From the NCBI RefSeq assembly GCF_019798055.1, contig NZ_JAHOPH010000004.1, positions 1-64,000 of the forward strand: DNA of 64,000 nucleotides, given 5' to 3'. This DNA is from Salsipaludibacter albus. GTDB lineage: Bacteria; Actinomycetota; Nitriliruptoria; Nitriliruptorales; Nitriliruptoraceae. Positions 13,306-61,297 of this stretch are shown here, in pieces. A program made the translations under genes and the position numbers. The stretch's first letter is position 1; every line of letters starts with the position of its first letter. The notes beneath the pieces were generated by a model. It was given only the letters and a program-made list of their open reading frames with translations, made no database searches and was not told where the DNA came from.

Positions 13306-13560
13306 TCACAGGCGGCGTTCGGATCCCGACAGCACGGGACCGAAACGGTCCCGGGTGTAGCGACCGGGCTGGCCACGGTCGATCAGGAATTCCACCTCGG
13401 ATGCGTCGAGGTCGAATCCCACGACCAACTCGCAGGTGTCGCAGCGATACTTCCCCATGCCCTCGAAGGTCGCGACGAGATGCTGTGAGCCATCACAGCG
13501 CGTGCACTCGCGCGTGTCGGGTGGGGTGGTCGGGGCGGCGGTGGGAGTCGTCGTGTCCAT
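13306..13560 (-). CDS. Small zinc-ribbon protein
   Basis: 84 residues. CTRCDGSQHLVATFEGMGKYRCDTC provides two CxxC knuckles, followed by a short alpha/beta tail. Family and function are not recognised. ATG 13560 lacks a Shine-Dalgarno but has TACGGT 7 nt upstream, so it is probably leaderless. It shares a 124-nt divergent promoter region with the PAC2 gene. Confidence 0.65.
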   Translation of the reverse strand: MDTTTPTAAPTTPPDTRECTRCDGSQHLVATFEGMGKYRCDTCELVVGFDLDASEVEFLIDRGQPGRYTRDRFGPVLSGSERRL

Positions 13561-13567
13561 GTGGGCC

Positions 13568-13573
13568 ACCGTA
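13568..13573 (-). promoter_or_regulatory. -10 box of a leaderless promoter (zinc-ribbon gene)
   Basis: TACGGT on the minus strand, 7 nt before ATG 13560. Confidence 0.45.
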
Positions 13574-13672
13574 CCCCAACGTCCTCGGACGCCGGGGCAA
13601 CCTGTGCCCCCGCCGGGGAGACAACCTGCGTCGGCTCCACACAGGGTGCCCGGGGTCGTGGCACGAGCGGCA

Positions 13673-13678
13673 TATCCT
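13673..13678 (+). promoter_or_regulatory. -10 box of a leaderless promoter (PAC2 gene)
   Basis: TATCCT lies 6 nt before ATG 13685, with no ribosome binding site between. The spacing places the transcript start at the start codon. Confidence 0.5.
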
Positions 13679-13684
13679 GCCCCC

Positions 13685-14548
13685 ATGGACATTCTTCGAC
13701 TCCACGACGACATGGACGCCCGGGGCGCCACCTCACTGGTGGTCGGCCTCGACGGCTGGACCGACGCCGGGGCGGCCGGGACCACCGCGGCCGAGCACCT
13801 GGTCTCGGACCACCCGTCCCAGCACCTCGGAGACGCGCGCCCCGACGCGGTCTTCGACTTCCGCGACCGCCGCCCGATGGTGCCCATCGACGCGGGCCAC
13901 TTCGGGGAGGTCACCTGGCCGACGATCGACCTGTACCGGGTCGACGTCACCGACGAGCGCTCGATCCTGGTGCTGACCGGTGCCGAGCCCGACTTCGCCT
14001 GGCAGGCGCTCGGGGACGACCTCGCCGAACTGACCCGGGCGATCGGCCTCAGTGACTACGTCGGCCTGGGCTCCGTGCCGGGGCCGGTCCCCCACACCCG
14101 GCCCGTGCGGGTCACGACGACCTCCAACGACGAGTCGCTGCTGGTCAGGTTCGGTCGGGCCCACGAGAAGATGGTCGTGCCGGGCTCGGCGCAGGTGACC
14201 CTGGAGGTCGCACTGGGCGACCTGGGCCTGCGCACCCTCGGCATGTGGGCGCGCATCCCCCACTACGTCGCCGGTGACTACCCCGCCGCCGCAGCCATGC
14301 TCCTGCGCCGGCTGGGCGAGCACCTCGACTTCACCCCCCGGCTCGACGAGCTCGAGGAGGAGGCGGTCGGCCACGCCGAGCGCCTCGCCGAGGCCGCCGC
14401 GGAGTCGGGCGAGGTGTCGGCCCACATCAGCGCCCTCGAGGGTGCCTACGACGCTGACGTCGCCGAGGACTCGGGCCTCGAGGGCCCCCTGCCCACCGGT
14501 GACCAGATCGCCGAGGAGCTCGAACGCTTCCTCCGCAACCGCGGATAG
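13685..14548 (+). CDS. PAC2 family protein (proteasome assembly chaperone fold)
   Basis: 287 residues matching the actinobacterial PAC2 family: LVVGLDGWTDAGAAGTTAAEHL near the N-terminus, then EPDFAWQAL, VGLGSVPGPVPHTRPV and HYVAGDYPAAAAMLLRRL. It ends with an acidic helical tail (GPLPTGDQIAEELERFLRNRG). PAC2 proteins are homologous to eukaryotic and archaeal 20S assembly chaperones. Bacterial members occur mainly in proteasome-bearing actinobacteria, but no biochemical role is established. It lies about 39 kb from prcBA, so any link to the proteasome is only suggestive. Confidence 0.85.
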   Translation: MDILRLHDDMDARGATSLVVGLDGWTDAGAAGTTAAEHLVSDHPSQHLGDARPDAVFDFRDRRPMVPIDAGHFGEVTWPTIDLYRVDVTDERSILVLTGAEPDFAWQALGDDLAELTRAIGLSDYVGLGSVPGPVPHTRPVRVTTTSNDESLLVRFGRAHEKMVVPGSAQVTLEVALGDLGLRTLGMWARIPHYVAGDYPAAAAMLLRRLGEHLDFTPRLDELEEEAVGHAERLAEAAAESGEVSAHISALEGAYDADVAEDSGLEGPLPTGDQIAEELERFLRNRG

Positions 14549-15057
14549 TCACGGACGGGCACCCGCTGCGGAAATCATGTCCGTGGGCGGCGGGAAGGAC
14601 CGGGGCGAACCGGCCCGCTTCGCCTCGTCCCACCTCCCCCGCATCGGGTGGGCGAGGACGAGCCAACAGCGCTCGTCCTCGCCTCCATCCTCGCTCGCAA
14701 CGGACGTCCCACTCCTGCAGTCGAGTGTGCGCCCTGCTCCAGCGCGTTGGAGGGATCAGCACACTCGACGTGGCTGGAGGCAGCGCCGACCGCTGTCTGG
14801 TCGGCCCTGCCCACGCGGTGCGGGGGACGCCGGTGCAGGCGAAGGACGCCGGCTCGTCCGGGTCCTTCAAGCCCTGACCGGGACCGCCATCCGCACCGCG
14901 TGCTGACCTCGTTCCCGACCTGGCTGGAGGCAGCGCCGACCGCTGTTGGGTCGGCCCTGCCCACGCGGTGCGGGGGACGCCGGTGCAGGCGAAGGACGCC
15001 GGCTCGTCCGGGTCCTTCAAGCCGTGACCGGGACCACCGTCCGCACCGTGTGCTCAT
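14549..15057. repeat. Gene-free convergent region with three copies of a 94-nt structured repeat
   Basis: Copy I is 14594-14687 (plus orientation). Copies II (14775-14868) and III (14925-15018) are inverted. II and III are nearly identical over about 135 nt with a 150-nt period. I aligns to them without gaps but differs at many positions. In all copies the last hairpin keeps a loop like CAACAGC while both arms change together: GCGAGGACGAGC pairs with its complement in I, GCCGACC with GGTCGGC in III. Frames across it are repeat translations, not genes. Confidence 0.75.
14720..14769. terminator. Nested hairpin between repeat copies I and II
   Basis: GTCGAGTGTG at 14720-14729 pairs perfectly with CACACTCGAC at 14760-14769, and CTCCA/TGGAG pair inside it. 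It lies in the convergent gap after the PAC2 gene and could end transcription from either side. There is no U-tract. Confidence 0.45.
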
Positions 15058-16593
15058 TCAGAGCCGGAAGTCCATGTCGGCCTCGACGGTGGCGACGTCC
15101 ATCTGGGCCTTCTGGAGTTGGCCCGACCAGTCCCAGTTGGTGGACTGCCAGCGAGTGACCTGGTCCAGCACCCAGATCCCGGACTGGCGCGCGCCGTTGC
15201 CGGACTTGCCGTTGCCGCCGAAGGGCAGGTGCGCCTCGGCCCCCGACGTCGAGTTGTTGATCGACAGCATCCCCGCCGACACCTGCTCGCGGAAGCTGAA
15301 CGCCGTCGCGGGGTCGGTGGTGTAGATCGACGACGACAGTCCGTAGCCATGGCCGTTGGCCAGCTCGACCGCGTCGTCGAAGTCGACCGCGGTGGTCACG
15401 GGCACGATCGGACCGAAGGTCTCGTTGCGGTACAGCGCGTCGTCGCGGGTCACGCCGCTGACGATCGTCGGGTGGTCGAAGATCCCGATCGTCGGGTCCC
15501 CCACGAATCCCTCGCGCGGGTTGTCCGCGGTGATCCGGCCGACCCCGGTCGAGCCGGCGACCGTGTGGTGGTCCTCGATCTCCTGCAGCCACTTCTCGAA
15601 GTTGACCGCGAACCGCTCGGAGATCATCGGCCCGTACAGGACGTCCTGGGTCGGGTCCCCGATCGCCGCGGACTCGACCGCCGCGGTGAAGCGTGACAGG
15701 AACTCGTCGGCGATCTGCTCGTGCAGCACCAGGATGCCCAACGACGTGCAGCGCTGGCCCGCCGTGCCGAAGCCCGAGAACAGCGCGCCCTCGACCGCCA
15801 GGTCGAGGTCGGCGTCGGGCATGACGACGAGCGGGTTCTTGCCACCCAGCTCGAGTGTCGGGCTGACCAGGTGGCGTCCGCACAGCTCGGCGATGCGGCG
15901 ACCGACCGTGGACGACCCGGTGAAGCCGACCTTGTGGAGCGAGCCTGCCTCCAGGGCCTGCTCGAGCCCGTCCGAGGTGGCCGGGCCGTCGGCCAGGACC
16001 ATCTGGAACACCGACGGCGGGATGCCCGCCGCGTGGACCAGCCGGGTGAAGGCCTCCGCGATCGCCGGCGTGTACTCGGCGGGCTTCCACACCACGGCGT
16101 TGCCGGCGACCAGCGCGGGGACGACGTACCACGACGGGACCGCGACCGGGAAGTTGCCCGCGGTGACGATGGCCATCGTCCCGACCGGCACCCGGTAGGT
16201 CGACAGGTGCTTGGCCGGCATCTCCGACGGCACCGTCTGGCCGTACAGCCGCCGCCCCTCCGAGGCGAAGAAGATGCAGGTGTCGATCGCCTCCTGCACC
16301 TCGCCCAGCGACTCGGGCAGGGGCTTGCCGATCTCCCGGGTCACCAGTTCCGCCAGCGCCTGCTTGTTGTCCTCGAACAGGACCCCCAGGCGGTGGATGG
16401 CGACGCCGCGGATCGGGGCGGGCACGGCGGCCCACTCGCGCTGGGCGGTGGCGGCGTCTGCGGCGGCGCCGGCGAAGGCGGCCCCGTCGACCAGCGACGC
16501 CTCGCCCAGCACGTCGTCCAGGTTCGCCGGGTTGGCGGCGGTGAGCGTGGTGGGGCCAGTCTGGGCCTCGCCGTTGATGATCGAGGTGAACAT
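15058..16593 (-). CDS. Aldehyde dehydrogenase, probable 2-aminoadipate semialdehyde dehydrogenase
   Basis: 511-residue NAD(P)-dependent ALDH. The nucleotide fold has VPVGTMAIVTAGNFPVA and VWKPAEYTP; GFTGSSTVG is the Rossmann turn; ELGGKNP carries Glu248 and GTAGQRCTS carries catalytic Cys282. Sequence and context resemble the ALDH7/antiquitin group, which oxidises aminoadipate semialdehyde. The gene follows lysine 6-transaminase by 76 nt on the same strand, so the pair would turn lysine into 2-aminoadipate. GGAG lies 7 nt before ATG 16593. Confidence 0.8.
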   Translation of the reverse strand: MFTSIINGEAQTGPTTLTAANPANLDDVLGEASLVDGAAFAGAAADAATAQREWAAVPAPIRGVAIHRLGVLFEDNKQALAELVTREIGKPLPESLGEVQEAIDTCIFFASEGRRLYGQTVPSEMPAKHLSTYRVPVGTMAIVTAGNFPVAVPSWYVVPALVAGNAVVWKPAEYTPAIAEAFTRLVHAAGIPPSVFQMVLADGPATSDGLEQALEAGSLHKVGFTGSSTVGRRIAELCGRHLVSPTLELGGKNPLVVMPDADLDLAVEGALFSGFGTAGQRCTSLGILVLHEQIADEFLSRFTAAVESAAIGDPTQDVLYGPMISERFAVNFEKWLQEIEDHHTVAGSTGVGRITADNPREGFVGDPTIGIFDHPTIVSGVTRDDALYRNETFGPIVPVTTAVDFDDAVELANGHGYGLSSSIYTTDPATAFSFREQVSAGMLSINNSTSGAEAHLPFGGNGKSGNGARQSGIWVLDQVTRWQSTNWDWSGQLQKAQMDVATVEADMDFRL

Positions 16594-16669
16594 GTCGGAC
16601 TCCGGAGCGGATCGGGCAGGTGGGGAGGTCGGTGGCCGGGCGTGCCCGGCAGTGGTGTCGCGGTGCCGT

Positions 16670-17986
16670 TCAGGCAGTGGCCACGAGGGCACGCTGGACG
16701 GCGTCCAGGGCGAGGTCGATCTCGGCGGGCGTGATCGTCAGGGCAGGACGGAACCGGATGGACCGGGTGCCGCAGCCCAGGACGATGACCCGCTCGTGGG
16801 CGTACAGGTGCGAGACGACGGCGTCGCGCCGGTCACGGTCCGGCAGGTCGAAGGCACAGAACAGGCCACGGCCACGGGCGTTGGACACCGACGGGTGGTC
16901 GTCTGCGAGCTCGCGCAGGCCGATCAACAGGTGCTCGCCCACCTTCGCGGCGTTGTCGACCAGGCTGTCGCGCTCGATCACGTCGAAGATCGTGGTCGCG
17001 CGCGCGATGTCGGTCAGGTTGCCACCGAAGGTCGAGTTGATCCGGCTCGAGACCGTGAAGACGTTGTCGTCGAGGTCGTCGACGTGACGTCCGCCCATCA
17101 CGCCGCACACGTGGGTCTTCTTGCCGAACGCGACCAGGTCCGGCTCCAGCCCGAGCTGGGTGTGCACCCAGGGGCTGCCGGTGATGCCGACGCCGGTCTG
17201 CACCTCGTCGAGGATGAACAGGCTGTCGTGGGCGTGGCAGAGCTCCTGCACACCCTGCAGGTAGGTCGCGGAGAGGTGCCGGTCGCCCCCCTCGCCCTGG
17301 ATCGGCTCGGCGATGAACGCGGCGATGTCGTGGCCACGCTGCTCGAAGAGCTCGGTGACGGCGGCCAGCGCCGCGACCGTGGCGGCCTCGTTGGCGTCGG
17401 CGTTGGCCTCCAGGGGGAACGACAGCGCGGGAGTCGGCAGGCGTGGCCAATCGAACTTCGGGAACCGGGCAACCTTGGCCGGGTCGGTGTTGGTCAGGCT
17501 CATCGTGTAGCCGGACCGTCCGTGGAAGGCGCCCTGGAGGTGGGCGATGACGCCCGGGCCGTCCCCGCGACCGGCCGCCTCGCTGCGTCGCGAGTGGTGG
17601 TCGAACGCGGCCTTGAGCGTGTTCTCGACGGCCAGCGCGCCGCCCTCGATCAGGAACAGGTGGGGCAGCTCGTCGATGCCCAGCACGCGCTCGAACGAGG
17701 TGACGAAGTCGGCGAGCACGTCGCTGTAGACGTCGCTGTTGGACGGCTTGTTGATGGCGGCTCGCAGGAGTCGCTCGCGCACGTCGTCGTCGGCGAAGAC
17801 GGGGTGGTTCATCCCCAGTGCGTTGGACGCGAAGAACGAGAACATGTCCAGCCACGAGCGGCCGTCGCGTTGGTCGACCAGGTGTGCGCCGGAACTGCGA
17901 TCCAGGTCCAGCACGAGGTCGAAGCCGTCGACGAGGAGGTGTCCTCGGAGGGTGTCCAGCACGTCTGCGGGCGCGCCACGGGTCAT
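16670..17986 (-). CDS. lat: L-lysine 6-transaminase
   Basis: 438-residue class-III PLP aminotransferase. FASNALGMNHP near residue 52, IEGGALAVENTLKAAFDHH, IAEPIQGEGGDRH, ILDEVQTGVG (PLP-binding Asp) and AFGKKTHVCGVMGG (Schiff-base Lys ~289/290) match actinobacterial Lat. Lat moves the epsilon-amino group of lysine to 2-oxoglutarate. AGGAG lies 5-6 nt before ATG 17986. In Mycobacterium lat is a stationary-phase gene; in Streptomyces it feeds beta-lactam synthesis. No beta-lactam genes are visible here, so lysine catabolism or osmolyte supply is more likely. Confidence 0.87.
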   Translation of the reverse strand: MTRGAPADVLDTLRGHLLVDGFDLVLDLDRSSGAHLVDQRDGRSWLDMFSFFASNALGMNHPVFADDDVRERLLRAAINKPSNSDVYSDVLADFVTSFERVLGIDELPHLFLIEGGALAVENTLKAAFDHHSRRSEAAGRGDGPGVIAHLQGAFHGRSGYTMSLTNTDPAKVARFPKFDWPRLPTPALSFPLEANADANEAATVAALAAVTELFEQRGHDIAAFIAEPIQGEGGDRHLSATYLQGVQELCHAHDSLFILDEVQTGVGITGSPWVHTQLGLEPDLVAFGKKTHVCGVMGGRHVDDLDDNVFTVSSRINSTFGGNLTDIARATTIFDVIERDSLVDNAAKVGEHLLIGLRELADDHPSVSNARGRGLFCAFDLPDRDRRDAVVSHLYAHERVIVLGCGTRSIRFRPALTITPAEIDLALDAVQRALVATA

Positions 17987-24799: not shown

Positions 24800-24832
24800 C
24801 GTTGGGGGCACGCTAGCAGCGTGCCCCCAACG
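24800..24832 (-). terminator. Perfect 15-bp hairpin between bmpA and the ATPase gene
   Basis: CGTTGGGGGCACGCT (24800-24814) pairs fully with 24818-24832 around a 3-nt loop. It lies 24 nt after the bmpA stop and before the ATPase start. A partial terminator or 3' stabiliser here would leave more binding-protein than ATPase mRNA, as is usual for importers. Confidence 0.65.
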
Positions 24833-27839: not shown

Positions 27840-27914
27840 AGCGAACTCTGGGGCGGCCGGTCCGGTCGGCAGGGTGGTCGGTCGCCGCTGTCTGGCGATG
27901 CGACCACCATGTGC

Positions 27915-29240
27915 TCAGTACCGGTAGCTGTCTTCCTTGTAGGGGCCGCCGACGTCGACGCCGAGGTAGTCGGCCTGCGCCTGGGTCAGCGTGGTCAGCT
28001 TGGCGCCGACCTTCTCGAGGTGGAGGCGGGCGACCTCCTCGTCGAGGTGCTTGGGCAGGACGTACACCTCGTTCTTGTACTCGGCGTGGTTGTTCCACAG
28101 CTCGAGCTGGGCCAGCACCTGGTTGGTGAACGAGGTCGACATCACGAACGAGCTGTGGCCCGTGGCGCAGCCCAGGTTGAGCAGGCGTCCCTCGGCGAGC
28201 AGGATGATCGAGCGGCCGTTGGGCAGGTGCACCAGGTCGACCTGTGGCTTGACGCTGGTCCACTCGAACTCGCGCAGCGCCTCGGTCTGGATCTCGGTGT
28301 CGAAGTGGCCGATGTTGCCGACGATCGCGTGGTCCTTGAGCCGCAGCATGTCGTCCACGGTCAGGATGTCGTCGTTGCCGGTGGCGGTGATGACGATGTC
28401 GACGTCGTCGATGACGTCGTCGAGCAGCACCACGCGGTAGCCCTCCATGGTGGCCTGGAGCGCGTTGATGGGGTCGATCTCGGTGACGACCACGGTGGCG
28501 CCCATGCCGGCCAGCGCCTGGACGCAGCCCTTGCCCACGTCGCCGTAGCCGCACACGACCGCGCGCTTGCCGGCGATCATCACGTCGGTCGCCCGCTTGA
28601 TGCCGTCGATCAACGACTCGCGGCAGCCGTAGAGGTTGTCGAACTTGGACTTGGTGACCGAGTCGTTGACGTTGATCGCCGTCATCCGCAGGGTCCCGCC
28701 CTTGCTGTACTGGCGCAGGGTCTTGATCCCGGTGGTGGTCTCCTCGGAGACGCCGAGGATGTCGGGGATCAGCTCCTCGTACTCCTCGTGGACCAGGGCG
28801 GTGAGGTCGCCGCCGTCGTCCAGCAGGAGGTTGGGGCCCTTGCCGTCACCGAAGTCCAGCGTCTGGCGGATGCACCACACGTACTCGTCCTCGGTCTCGC
28901 CCTTCCAGGCGAACACCGGCGTGCCGGCGGCGGCGACGGCCGCGGCAGCGTGGTCCTCGGTGGAGAAGATGTTGCACGAGGACCAGCGGACCTCGGCACC
29001 CAGCTCCTCGAGGGTCTCGATCAGGACCGCGGTCTGCACGGTCATGTGGAGGCAGCCAGCGATGCGGGCACCCGCCAGCGGCTGGGTGTCGGCGTGGCGC
29101 TCGCGCAGCGCCATCAGGCCGGGCATCTCCTTCTCGGCCAGTTCGATGGCGATGCGTCCGGAGGCCGCGAGGTCGAGGTCGCGGACCTTGAAGTCGCCGG
29201 TGGTCGCGGAGGTGTCGGCAGGGGTGGTCGAGGTGCTCAC
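27915..29240 (-). CDS. ahcY: S-adenosylhomocysteine hydrolase
   Basis: 441 residues. Substrate-domain motifs [16 protein letters not shown] and [15 protein letters not shown], catalytic [26 protein letters not shown] loop [11 protein letters not shown], and C-terminal [22 protein letters not shown] ending KEDSYRY, the canonical C-terminal Lys-x2-4-Tyr form. It splits SAH into homocysteine and adenosine. GTG 29240 with AAGG 9 nt upstream was preferred to the longer frame, which would add 15 atypical residues. Confidence 0.93.
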
Positions 29241-46405: not shown

Positions 46406-46433
46406 GGACGTTGCGAGCGCAGCGAGCAACTCC
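46406..46433 (-). terminator. GAGCGCAGCGA-loop hairpin after helY
   Basis: GGA-C-GTTGC pairs with GCAAC-TCC around loop GAGCGCAGCGA. It lies 45 nt past the helY stop, in the gap before the lipid kinase gene. Confidence 0.55.
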
Positions 46434-52230: not shown

Positions 52231-52546
52231 GCGTGCTCCTCGATCGGCCGTCGGTCCCGAGGTTGCCAGATCCGCCGGACCGCCGCAGCCCACCCCCTCC
52301 CGGCAGCCGTGACCGAATCCCGCCGACTGTTGCCCTCATGCATCACGGTTGCGCCTCGTCTGGAGTTCACTGGCTCGGCGGCTGCGCGTCTGGACGTTCC
52401 GAGCGCAGCGAGGAACTCCAATGCATCGGGGTCGGGACACCAGGTCCCGGATCGCCTACGGGCCGTGGAGTTGCGAGCGAAGCGAGCACACTCCAATGCA
52501 GCCGGACACGGCTTCGTTCGGAGCTCAACGGCTCGGCGGCTGCGCG
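52231..52546. repeat. 316-nt gene-free region: two loop-family hairpins flanked by a 29-nt direct repeat
   Basis: Direct repeats at 52362-52390 and 52520-52548 differ at 3 of 29 positions, with GGCTCGGCGGCTGCGCGTC identical; the second touches the pafA stop. Between them lie hairpins 52392-52419 (GGA-C-GTTCC / GGAAC-TCC, loop GAGCGCAGCGA) and 52467-52494 (GGAGT-TGC / GCA-C-ACTCC, loop GAGCGAAGCGA), both followed by AATGCA. It probably ends the pafA transcript. No open gene. Confidence 0.6.
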
Positions 52547-61202: not shown

Positions 61203-61297
61203 CTGACGAGCGGAGCGAGTCAGTCGGTACCTCCCTCGGATCAGGCATGAGAACGGGCGCAGCGAGTTCTCAAACCTCCCCGAGGGACGAGGGGAGG
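61203..61297. terminator. Hairpin cluster between convergent genes
   Basis: CTGAC-GAGCGGAGCGA-GTCAG (61203-61223), TGAGAAC-GGGCGCAGCGA-GTTCTCA (61248-61272) and CCTCCCC/GGGGAGG (61275-61297) follow one another between the unknown gene and msrA. The first two have the shared loop sequence with different stems. They probably end both transcripts. Confidence 0.6.

Follow-up and report, generated by a model that had tools for sequence, protein, structure and literature searches.

A three-copy repeat between two convergent genes

A gap of 509 nt separates a PAC2-family gene (13436-14548, forward strand; Pfam PF09754, E 9.1e-45) from the convergent aldehyde dehydrogenase (ALDH) gene (15058-16692, reverse strand; Pfam PF00171, E 1.8e-124) in Salsipaludibacter albus; the start codon is uncertain for both. 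All positions refer to the window, by which we mean the whole analysed stretch of 64,000 nt. The initial annotation had described three gapless copies of a 94-nt sequence in this gap, one forward (14594-14687) and two inverted (14775-14868 and 14925-15018), and the alignment bears this out. The copies are real but were delimited too narrowly: the 5′ end lies about 35 nt farther out, the total length is 134 nt (repeat unit about 150 nt), and an outer 12-bp stem had been missed.

Copy I (14557-14690, forward strand; 113.6 bits, E 1.1e-18 in a cmsearch with model R2, described below) starts 8 nt past the stop codon of the upstream PAC2-family gene. Copies II (14772-14905; 120.8 bits) and III (14922-15055; 123.9 bits, E 1.2e-20) are on the reverse strand and have the ALDH gene upstream, copy III starting 2 nt past its stop codon. 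Copies III and II represent a tandem pair with a period of 150 nt, for which a repeat search reports a 139-nt repeat of 95% identity (14766-15054, reverse strand). When the three copies are aligned without gaps over 105 columns, copies II and III agree in 102/105 and copies I and III in 77/105. RNA folding z-scores of the window copies range from -3.0 to -4.0.

Each copy carries an outer stem, P0, and a terminal hairpin, P3. The 5′ strand of P0 in copy I (CACCCGCTGCGG, 14560-14571) pairs with CCGCATCGGGTG (14639-14650) with a single C-T mismatch, and the 3′ strand adjoins P3 (14651-14683), an inverted repeat with a perfect stem of 13 bp and the loop CAACAGC at 14664-14670. The P0 strands of copy II (14891-14902 and 14812-14823, reverse strand) pair perfectly and were found as an inverted repeat of 12 nt with 100% identity, while its P3 (14779-14811, reverse strand) has a G-G mismatch and the loop AGACAGC (14792-14798). 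Copy III shows one A-C mismatch in P0 (15041-15052 with 14962-14973, reverse strand) and, again, a G-G mismatch in P3 (14929-14961, reverse strand; loop CAACAGC at 14942-14948). Two features that had been noticed initially for the last hairpin were thus confirmed. Its loop is constant or nearly so, and its arms change jointly: of the 9 arm positions at which copy I departs from copies II/III, 8 are compensatory (4 pairs).

Other palindromic sequences occur in the window. Between copies I and II (14719-14768) there is an inverted repeat, GTCGAGTGTGC...GCACACTCGAC with inner CTCCAGCGCGTTGGAG, which is unrelated to P0 and P3. A second palindromic repeat with the core CTCGCTKCGCTCG has 7 matches with 0-1 mismatch, compared with 0.8 expected; its positions include 46414-46426, 52400-52412, 52474-52486 and 61207-61219. 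It is found in gaps of both species analysed below, including the PAC2-ALDH gap of the sister genome (L182 655-751), which is devoid of the 134-nt element. At 24801-24831 there is a 15-bp hairpin (gttgggggcacgct AGC agcgtgcccccaac) whose loop AGC is unrelated to that of the family.

Two covarying stems and a fixed loop

The outer stem P0 was spotted when additional copies were read side by side. Its 5′ strand, CAYNCGNTGCGG, is located about 100 nt before the loop and pairs with a box, CCGCANCGNRTG, that directly adjoins the last hairpin. P0, in which columns 4-15 of the family alignment pair with 86-97, has 12 bp and closes about 70 nt, which are weakly conserved and in single copies fold as an imperfect continuation of the stem with little consensus pairing. 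P3 follows P0 without a gap and has 13 bp, an invariant C-G closing pair and a 7-nt loop, NNACAGC. The ACAGC of the loop is invariant while the arms of P3 average 48% identity, and the family alignment also has invariant positions in P0.

The 11 full copies have a mean identity of 57%. Across these copies, 93.1% of the cells of the 25 pairs from P0 and P3 are paired; double changes occur in 19 of the 25 pairs and amount to 68 cells. Covariation thus extends beyond the three copies from which it was first suspected: none of 500 shuffles scores as high as the family alignment does, and pairing falls from 93% to 33-44% once the partners are shifted by 1-3 columns. Relatedness is not completely removed by these controls, however, and P0 and P3 were located partly on the same sequences. 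The same two stems fit nine loci with different stem sequences, plus the later-added copies C34b and g99.

Watson-Crick pairs account for 254 of the 275 cells. Only 2 of the 256 standard pairs are G-U, while there are 6 A-C mismatches. As selection acting on an RNA from this strand should prefer G-U to A-C, these numbers, although small, favour pairing at the DNA level or on both strands. One P3 position (103/125) is occupied by a G-G mismatch in 6 of the 11 copies, even though the pairs flanking it on either side vary. The mismatch may reflect shared descent. Its retention amid changed neighbours argues against a pure template-switch correction of the arms.

The other two hairpins of the 94-nt model did not survive. 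An exchange of TCG/CGA for TGC/GCA had been claimed for the middle hairpin, but these pairings fall in different columns (65-67 versus 64-66), and in the wider family columns 64-67 are part of other stems. The first hairpin, P1 (GAAGGAC/GTCCTTC), loses three pairs in copy I and shows no covariation in the family; it was replaced by P0.

Copies and distribution of the element

As had been suggested in the initial annotation, a covariance model was built from the three window copies (R1), and it retrieved further copies both in this genome (G000) and in the one other genome searched from the genus, which we refer to as the sister genome (G001). The model was then rebuilt with both stems, P0 and P3 (R2). 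R2 identifies 7 copies in S. albus on three contigs, namely the three described above, C34:68479-68612, two at C5:6120-6450, and C1:234371-234505. The sister genome has 6 copies (C73, C75, C104 and C99, plus the weaker C45 and C148). Most R2 copies are also recovered by a model of P3 alone. A wider population of P3-only hairpins was considered and rejected, the P3 model having 7 matches in S. albus, 5 in the sister genome and one weak match elsewhere.

The element is restricted to one genus. R2 found no additional genome at E <= 1e-3 or better, neither among 66 genomes of the class nor among 396 genomes of the phylum (394 besides these two); both scans used stricter filters, by which weak matches may be lost, and E-values of custom models are rough. 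A strict pattern, which not all known copies fit so that the scan is not exhaustive, yielded 50 matches in 84,980 species genomes, and the model confirms a single one. This is JAGXFT010000208.1, recorded for a Nitriliruptorales MAG, which is contig C75 of the sister genome. The strict pattern had 0 matches in viral contigs, and plasmid and phage records contributed a single 44-nt chance piece and nothing else. A loose IUPAC pattern was discarded since its counts outside the genus were similar to those of a reversed control. BLAST searches with single copies against the own genome and 60 relatives returned the tandem partner and otherwise chance pieces of 20-55 nt. The genus is represented by two species, both with draft genomes, and the sister genome is 87% complete.

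We thus find a 134-nt DNA element that is scattered over about ten gene ends in a genus of the Nitriliruptorales (Actinomycetota). Its copies have only about half of their letters in common, yet retain two matched hairpins and one fixed loop. It represents a previously undescribed small repeat family that is probably mobile, and the folded shape of which is seemingly preserved.

Position relative to genes and partial copies

At about 9 of the 12 loci, the element starts at or just past the stop codon of a gene on the same strand. The distance is 2 nt for ALDH, clpP, nucS and purH, 8 nt for PAC2, and 15 nt for pfk. Behind ccdA, the element starts at the stop codon, and it overlaps the gene end in the case of pdxT and P450. 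Three loci are antisense: the second copy in the clpP-clpX gap (C5p), g75 and g148. The sense bias (about 9/12 loci) corresponds to a binomial p of about 0.07.

At six loci, the 5′ part of the element is directly repeated (32-67 nt; the whole copy for the pair III-II) at 17-25 nt past the element end. All partial copies are 3′-truncated and downstream of the element. At C104 of the sister genome (L073 8770-8974), 17 nt past the element end there is a second, unchanged version of its first 54 nt which, compared with the half-identity between other loci, points to a recent local duplication or conversion.

A possible P3-only remnant is found at 27871-27914 (reverse strand) of the window, with the loop AGACAGC (27887-27893), a 2-nt bulge in the stem and a weak R2 score of 23.2 bits. 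An S-adenosylhomocysteine hydrolase gene ends directly before it (stop codon 27915-27917). The sequence before the remnant (27871-27917 when the stop codon is included) is GCACATGG, which gives the impression that P0 and the middle part have been deleted.

Presence and absence in two species

Concatenated protein queries served to find the neighbouring genes in the other species. Elements in the PAC2-ALDH gap, in the clpP-clpX gap and behind ccdA are specific to S. albus; in the sister genome the PAC2-ALDH gap is 95 nt long and has no element, the clpP-clpX gap has none, and nothing is found behind ccdA. The reverse holds for the purH-folD gap (43 nt in S. albus) and for the P450-ALDH, pdxT-yebC, pafA, g75 and pfk gaps, which are occupied in the sister genome only. 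The two species share an element at 1 of the 10 compared loci, the nucS locus, and differ at the other nine. Behind nucS of the sister genome, the P3 hairpin alone is left, its stem being nearly that of S. albus, while P0 and the middle part have been cleanly lost. At least this copy has thus been inherited vertically.

In two cases the element has written the end of a protein. The C-terminus of PdxT from the sister genome (...GDDRLHTLFVSGIRSGRPAS) is encoded by the element, whereas S. albus has ...GDDRLHAGWVATLGS; likewise, the P450 ends in element-coded residues (...KHLPISVRPTGG) where S. albus has ...KHLPVAVDDPT. The replaced ends are direct evidence for insertion at the two sites. The remaining differences are unpolarised and could be gains or losses alike. 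Empty sites were found, but their flanks are too diverged for any target-site duplication to be recognised. Selection on the fold and a mobile palindromic unit, the two readings offered initially, gain support from the further copies, the covariation and the presence/absence differences between the two species.

Comparison with known classes of elements

The element had been reported to match nothing known, and it has no Rfam match: only a tRNA reaches the gathering score in the window, and a permissive search of the element region returned sub-threshold miRNA and snoRNA models only. Intrinsic terminators, searched as a G+C-rich hairpin followed by a T run, are absent from 14400-15200. The longest exact match between the element termini is 0-8 nt, so that terminal inverted repeats are lacking, P0 being an internal stem. 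The copies carry no common gene or open frame. The Y1 transposase of IS200/IS605-type elements (PF01797) is absent from both draft genomes, while control genomes were positive.

Integron attC sites are imperfect DNA hairpins with variable sequence and a kept structure. The element differs from them, as the R''/R' core boxes (RYYYAAC...GTTRRRY) are found in 0/11 copies and there is no cassette array. Repeats of the bcr1 type have a size of about 150 nt. These and other families of stem-loop sequences are, like the element, interspersed structured repeats (PMC2267715); the element comes from a different phylum. REP/PU repeats with their RAYT are also palindromic hairpins near gene ends that occur in inverted and tandem groups. 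However, REPs are 20-40 bp long, carry a GTAG or CGTC tag, mostly have short loops, and frequently have G-T pairs in the stem (PMC3733652). The element has 134 nt, two hairpins, a 7-nt loop and almost no G-T; with no such tag (the bases before P3 are GRTG and part of P0) and no Y1, an assignment to REPs was rejected.

The element has the general traits of small interspersed palindromic repeats, being dispersed, non-coding, intergenic, 100-200 nt in length and able to form stable stem-loops. YPAL/RU-2, the 168-bp Yersinia palindromic sequence, which lacks terminal TA and has target-site duplications of 3-26 bp, resembles it in being intergenic, within 100-200 nt, not A+T-rich and equipped with internal inverted repeats (PMC2229807). 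The mobility of YPAL was deduced from the existence of empty and filled sites (PMC2229807), and presence/absence at orthologous sites is likewise observed here, with 9 of 10 loci differing between two species. The element differs in its phylum, its few copies (about 7) and their 57% identity, and no sequence relation to YPAL is established. ERIC/IRU/RU-1 (127 bp) is similar in size, in its long stem-loops, and in its intergenic position behind genes (PMC2229807). Orientation-dependent effects on the 3′ end of mRNAs have been proposed for ERIC, which is counted among the MITE-like elements, most of which have terminal inverted repeats and TA ends (PMC2229807). The element has no terminal inverted repeats, and no sequence relation to ERIC is established. 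It is best read as similar in kind to ERIC and YPAL and unrelated in sequence. Its unusual traits are the low copy number, very high divergence with kept pairing, a constant loop in variable stems, a recurrent mismatch, and the near-absence of G-U.

Possible origin and maintenance of the fold

We favour, with a probability of roughly 0.52, a small non-autonomous mobile palindromic repeat, the two-hairpin fold of which would be kept as DNA and read by shape. The folded DNA, either single-stranded or as a cruciform, would be recognised and moved by an enzyme encoded elsewhere. The loop, its invariant C-G closing pair and the G-G mismatch may serve as recognition features, and stem letters would be free to drift provided that pairing holds. 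The element would persist where its landing does no harm, mostly right behind a stop codon, and the tandem and partial copies could be by-products of either movement or replication slippage. From the comparison of the two species we infer transposition rather than many independent losses, although such losses could explain part of the pattern. Recognition at the DNA level and the existence of the enzyme are likewise presumed, and a survey of both genomes for Y1 linked no transposase or recombinase to the element. Mobility is also challenged by the age of the copies: with the exception of the pair II/III, copies within a genome are 47-69% identical, unlike those of recent bursts. Furthermore, a strand-blind DNA element needs no orientation bias, so that the sense bias speaks against it. 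A more specific version, which we regard as rather unlikely, has the element as substrate of a predicted structure-reading recombinase or transposase, with P3 stacked on P0 as the folded-DNA recognition unit. The copies would then keep their fold at about half letter identity because recognition is by shape and not by sequence.

The same sense bias and the position at or just past stop codons are what one would expect from a 3′-UTR RNA element, in which transcribed P0 and P3 stabilise, process or end the mRNA, perhaps with a protein bound at the ACAGC loop. The invariant loop and closing pair, the folding z-scores of the window copies, and the reduced copy of the sister genome, which keeps P3 directly behind nucS, are in line with this. 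Structured RNA, however, usually has far more G-U pairs than 2 in 256. Three loci (C5p, g75, g148) are antisense, 1 locus in 10 is kept in the other species, and there is neither a T-run terminator nor an Rfam match. Two copies even share the clpP-clpX gap, in which termination would be undesirable. We consider an RNA function less likely than a mobile repeat, although the sense bias and the position behind stop codons lend it real weight.

It may also be asked if the fold is selected at all. Hairpins with compensatory changes are known to arise and persist through template switching (PMC8794818). Such quasipalindrome correction would keep the arms complementary and yield Watson-Crick double changes without G-U intermediates, as observed, and the 3′-truncated partial copies 17-25 nt downstream as well as the clean loss of P0 and the middle part behind nucS could be slippage products. 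What it leaves unexplained are the invariant ACAGC loop, the C-G closing pair, the invariant P0 positions, and stems of 13 bp and 12 bp at fixed distances in unrelated loci; correction should also have removed the G-G mismatch, which is kept in 6/11 copies. Template switching as the sole cause is thus improbable in our view, although the Watson-Crick double changes, the partial duplications and the deletion behind nucS lend it some weight.

A folded-DNA recombination site of the attC kind, or the hairpin end of a single-strand transposon, served by a dedicated enzyme, would account for imperfect hairpin DNA with free stem sequence and fixed extra features. The direct repeats of the 5′ part at six loci look like what one-ended or rolling-circle transfer, or the insertion of a cassette, would leave behind. 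Without the core-box pair in any of the 11 copies, a Y1 transposase, or a carried gene or open frame, this is highly improbable. A single local duplication, tandem or inverted, could have decayed and its stems could match by chance; such decay had been named initially as an alternative and would suit the 95% identical tandem pair of copies II and III but is excluded for the family as a whole by dispersed copies with the same fold on other contigs and in another species.

As a rule, small palindromic repeats are known by the sequence that they have in common, and the 134-nt family is nearly invisible to sequence search. Such a degree of conservation of structure over sequence is more typical of structured RNAs or attC sites, and yet there is almost no G-U. 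The family thus offers a clean test case for the question whether a fold is selected as DNA, selected as RNA, or upheld by template switching. If a shape-reading enzyme does act on the mobile palindromic repeat that we favour, other genomes may hold families of low copy number and high divergence that have been missed by repeat finders.
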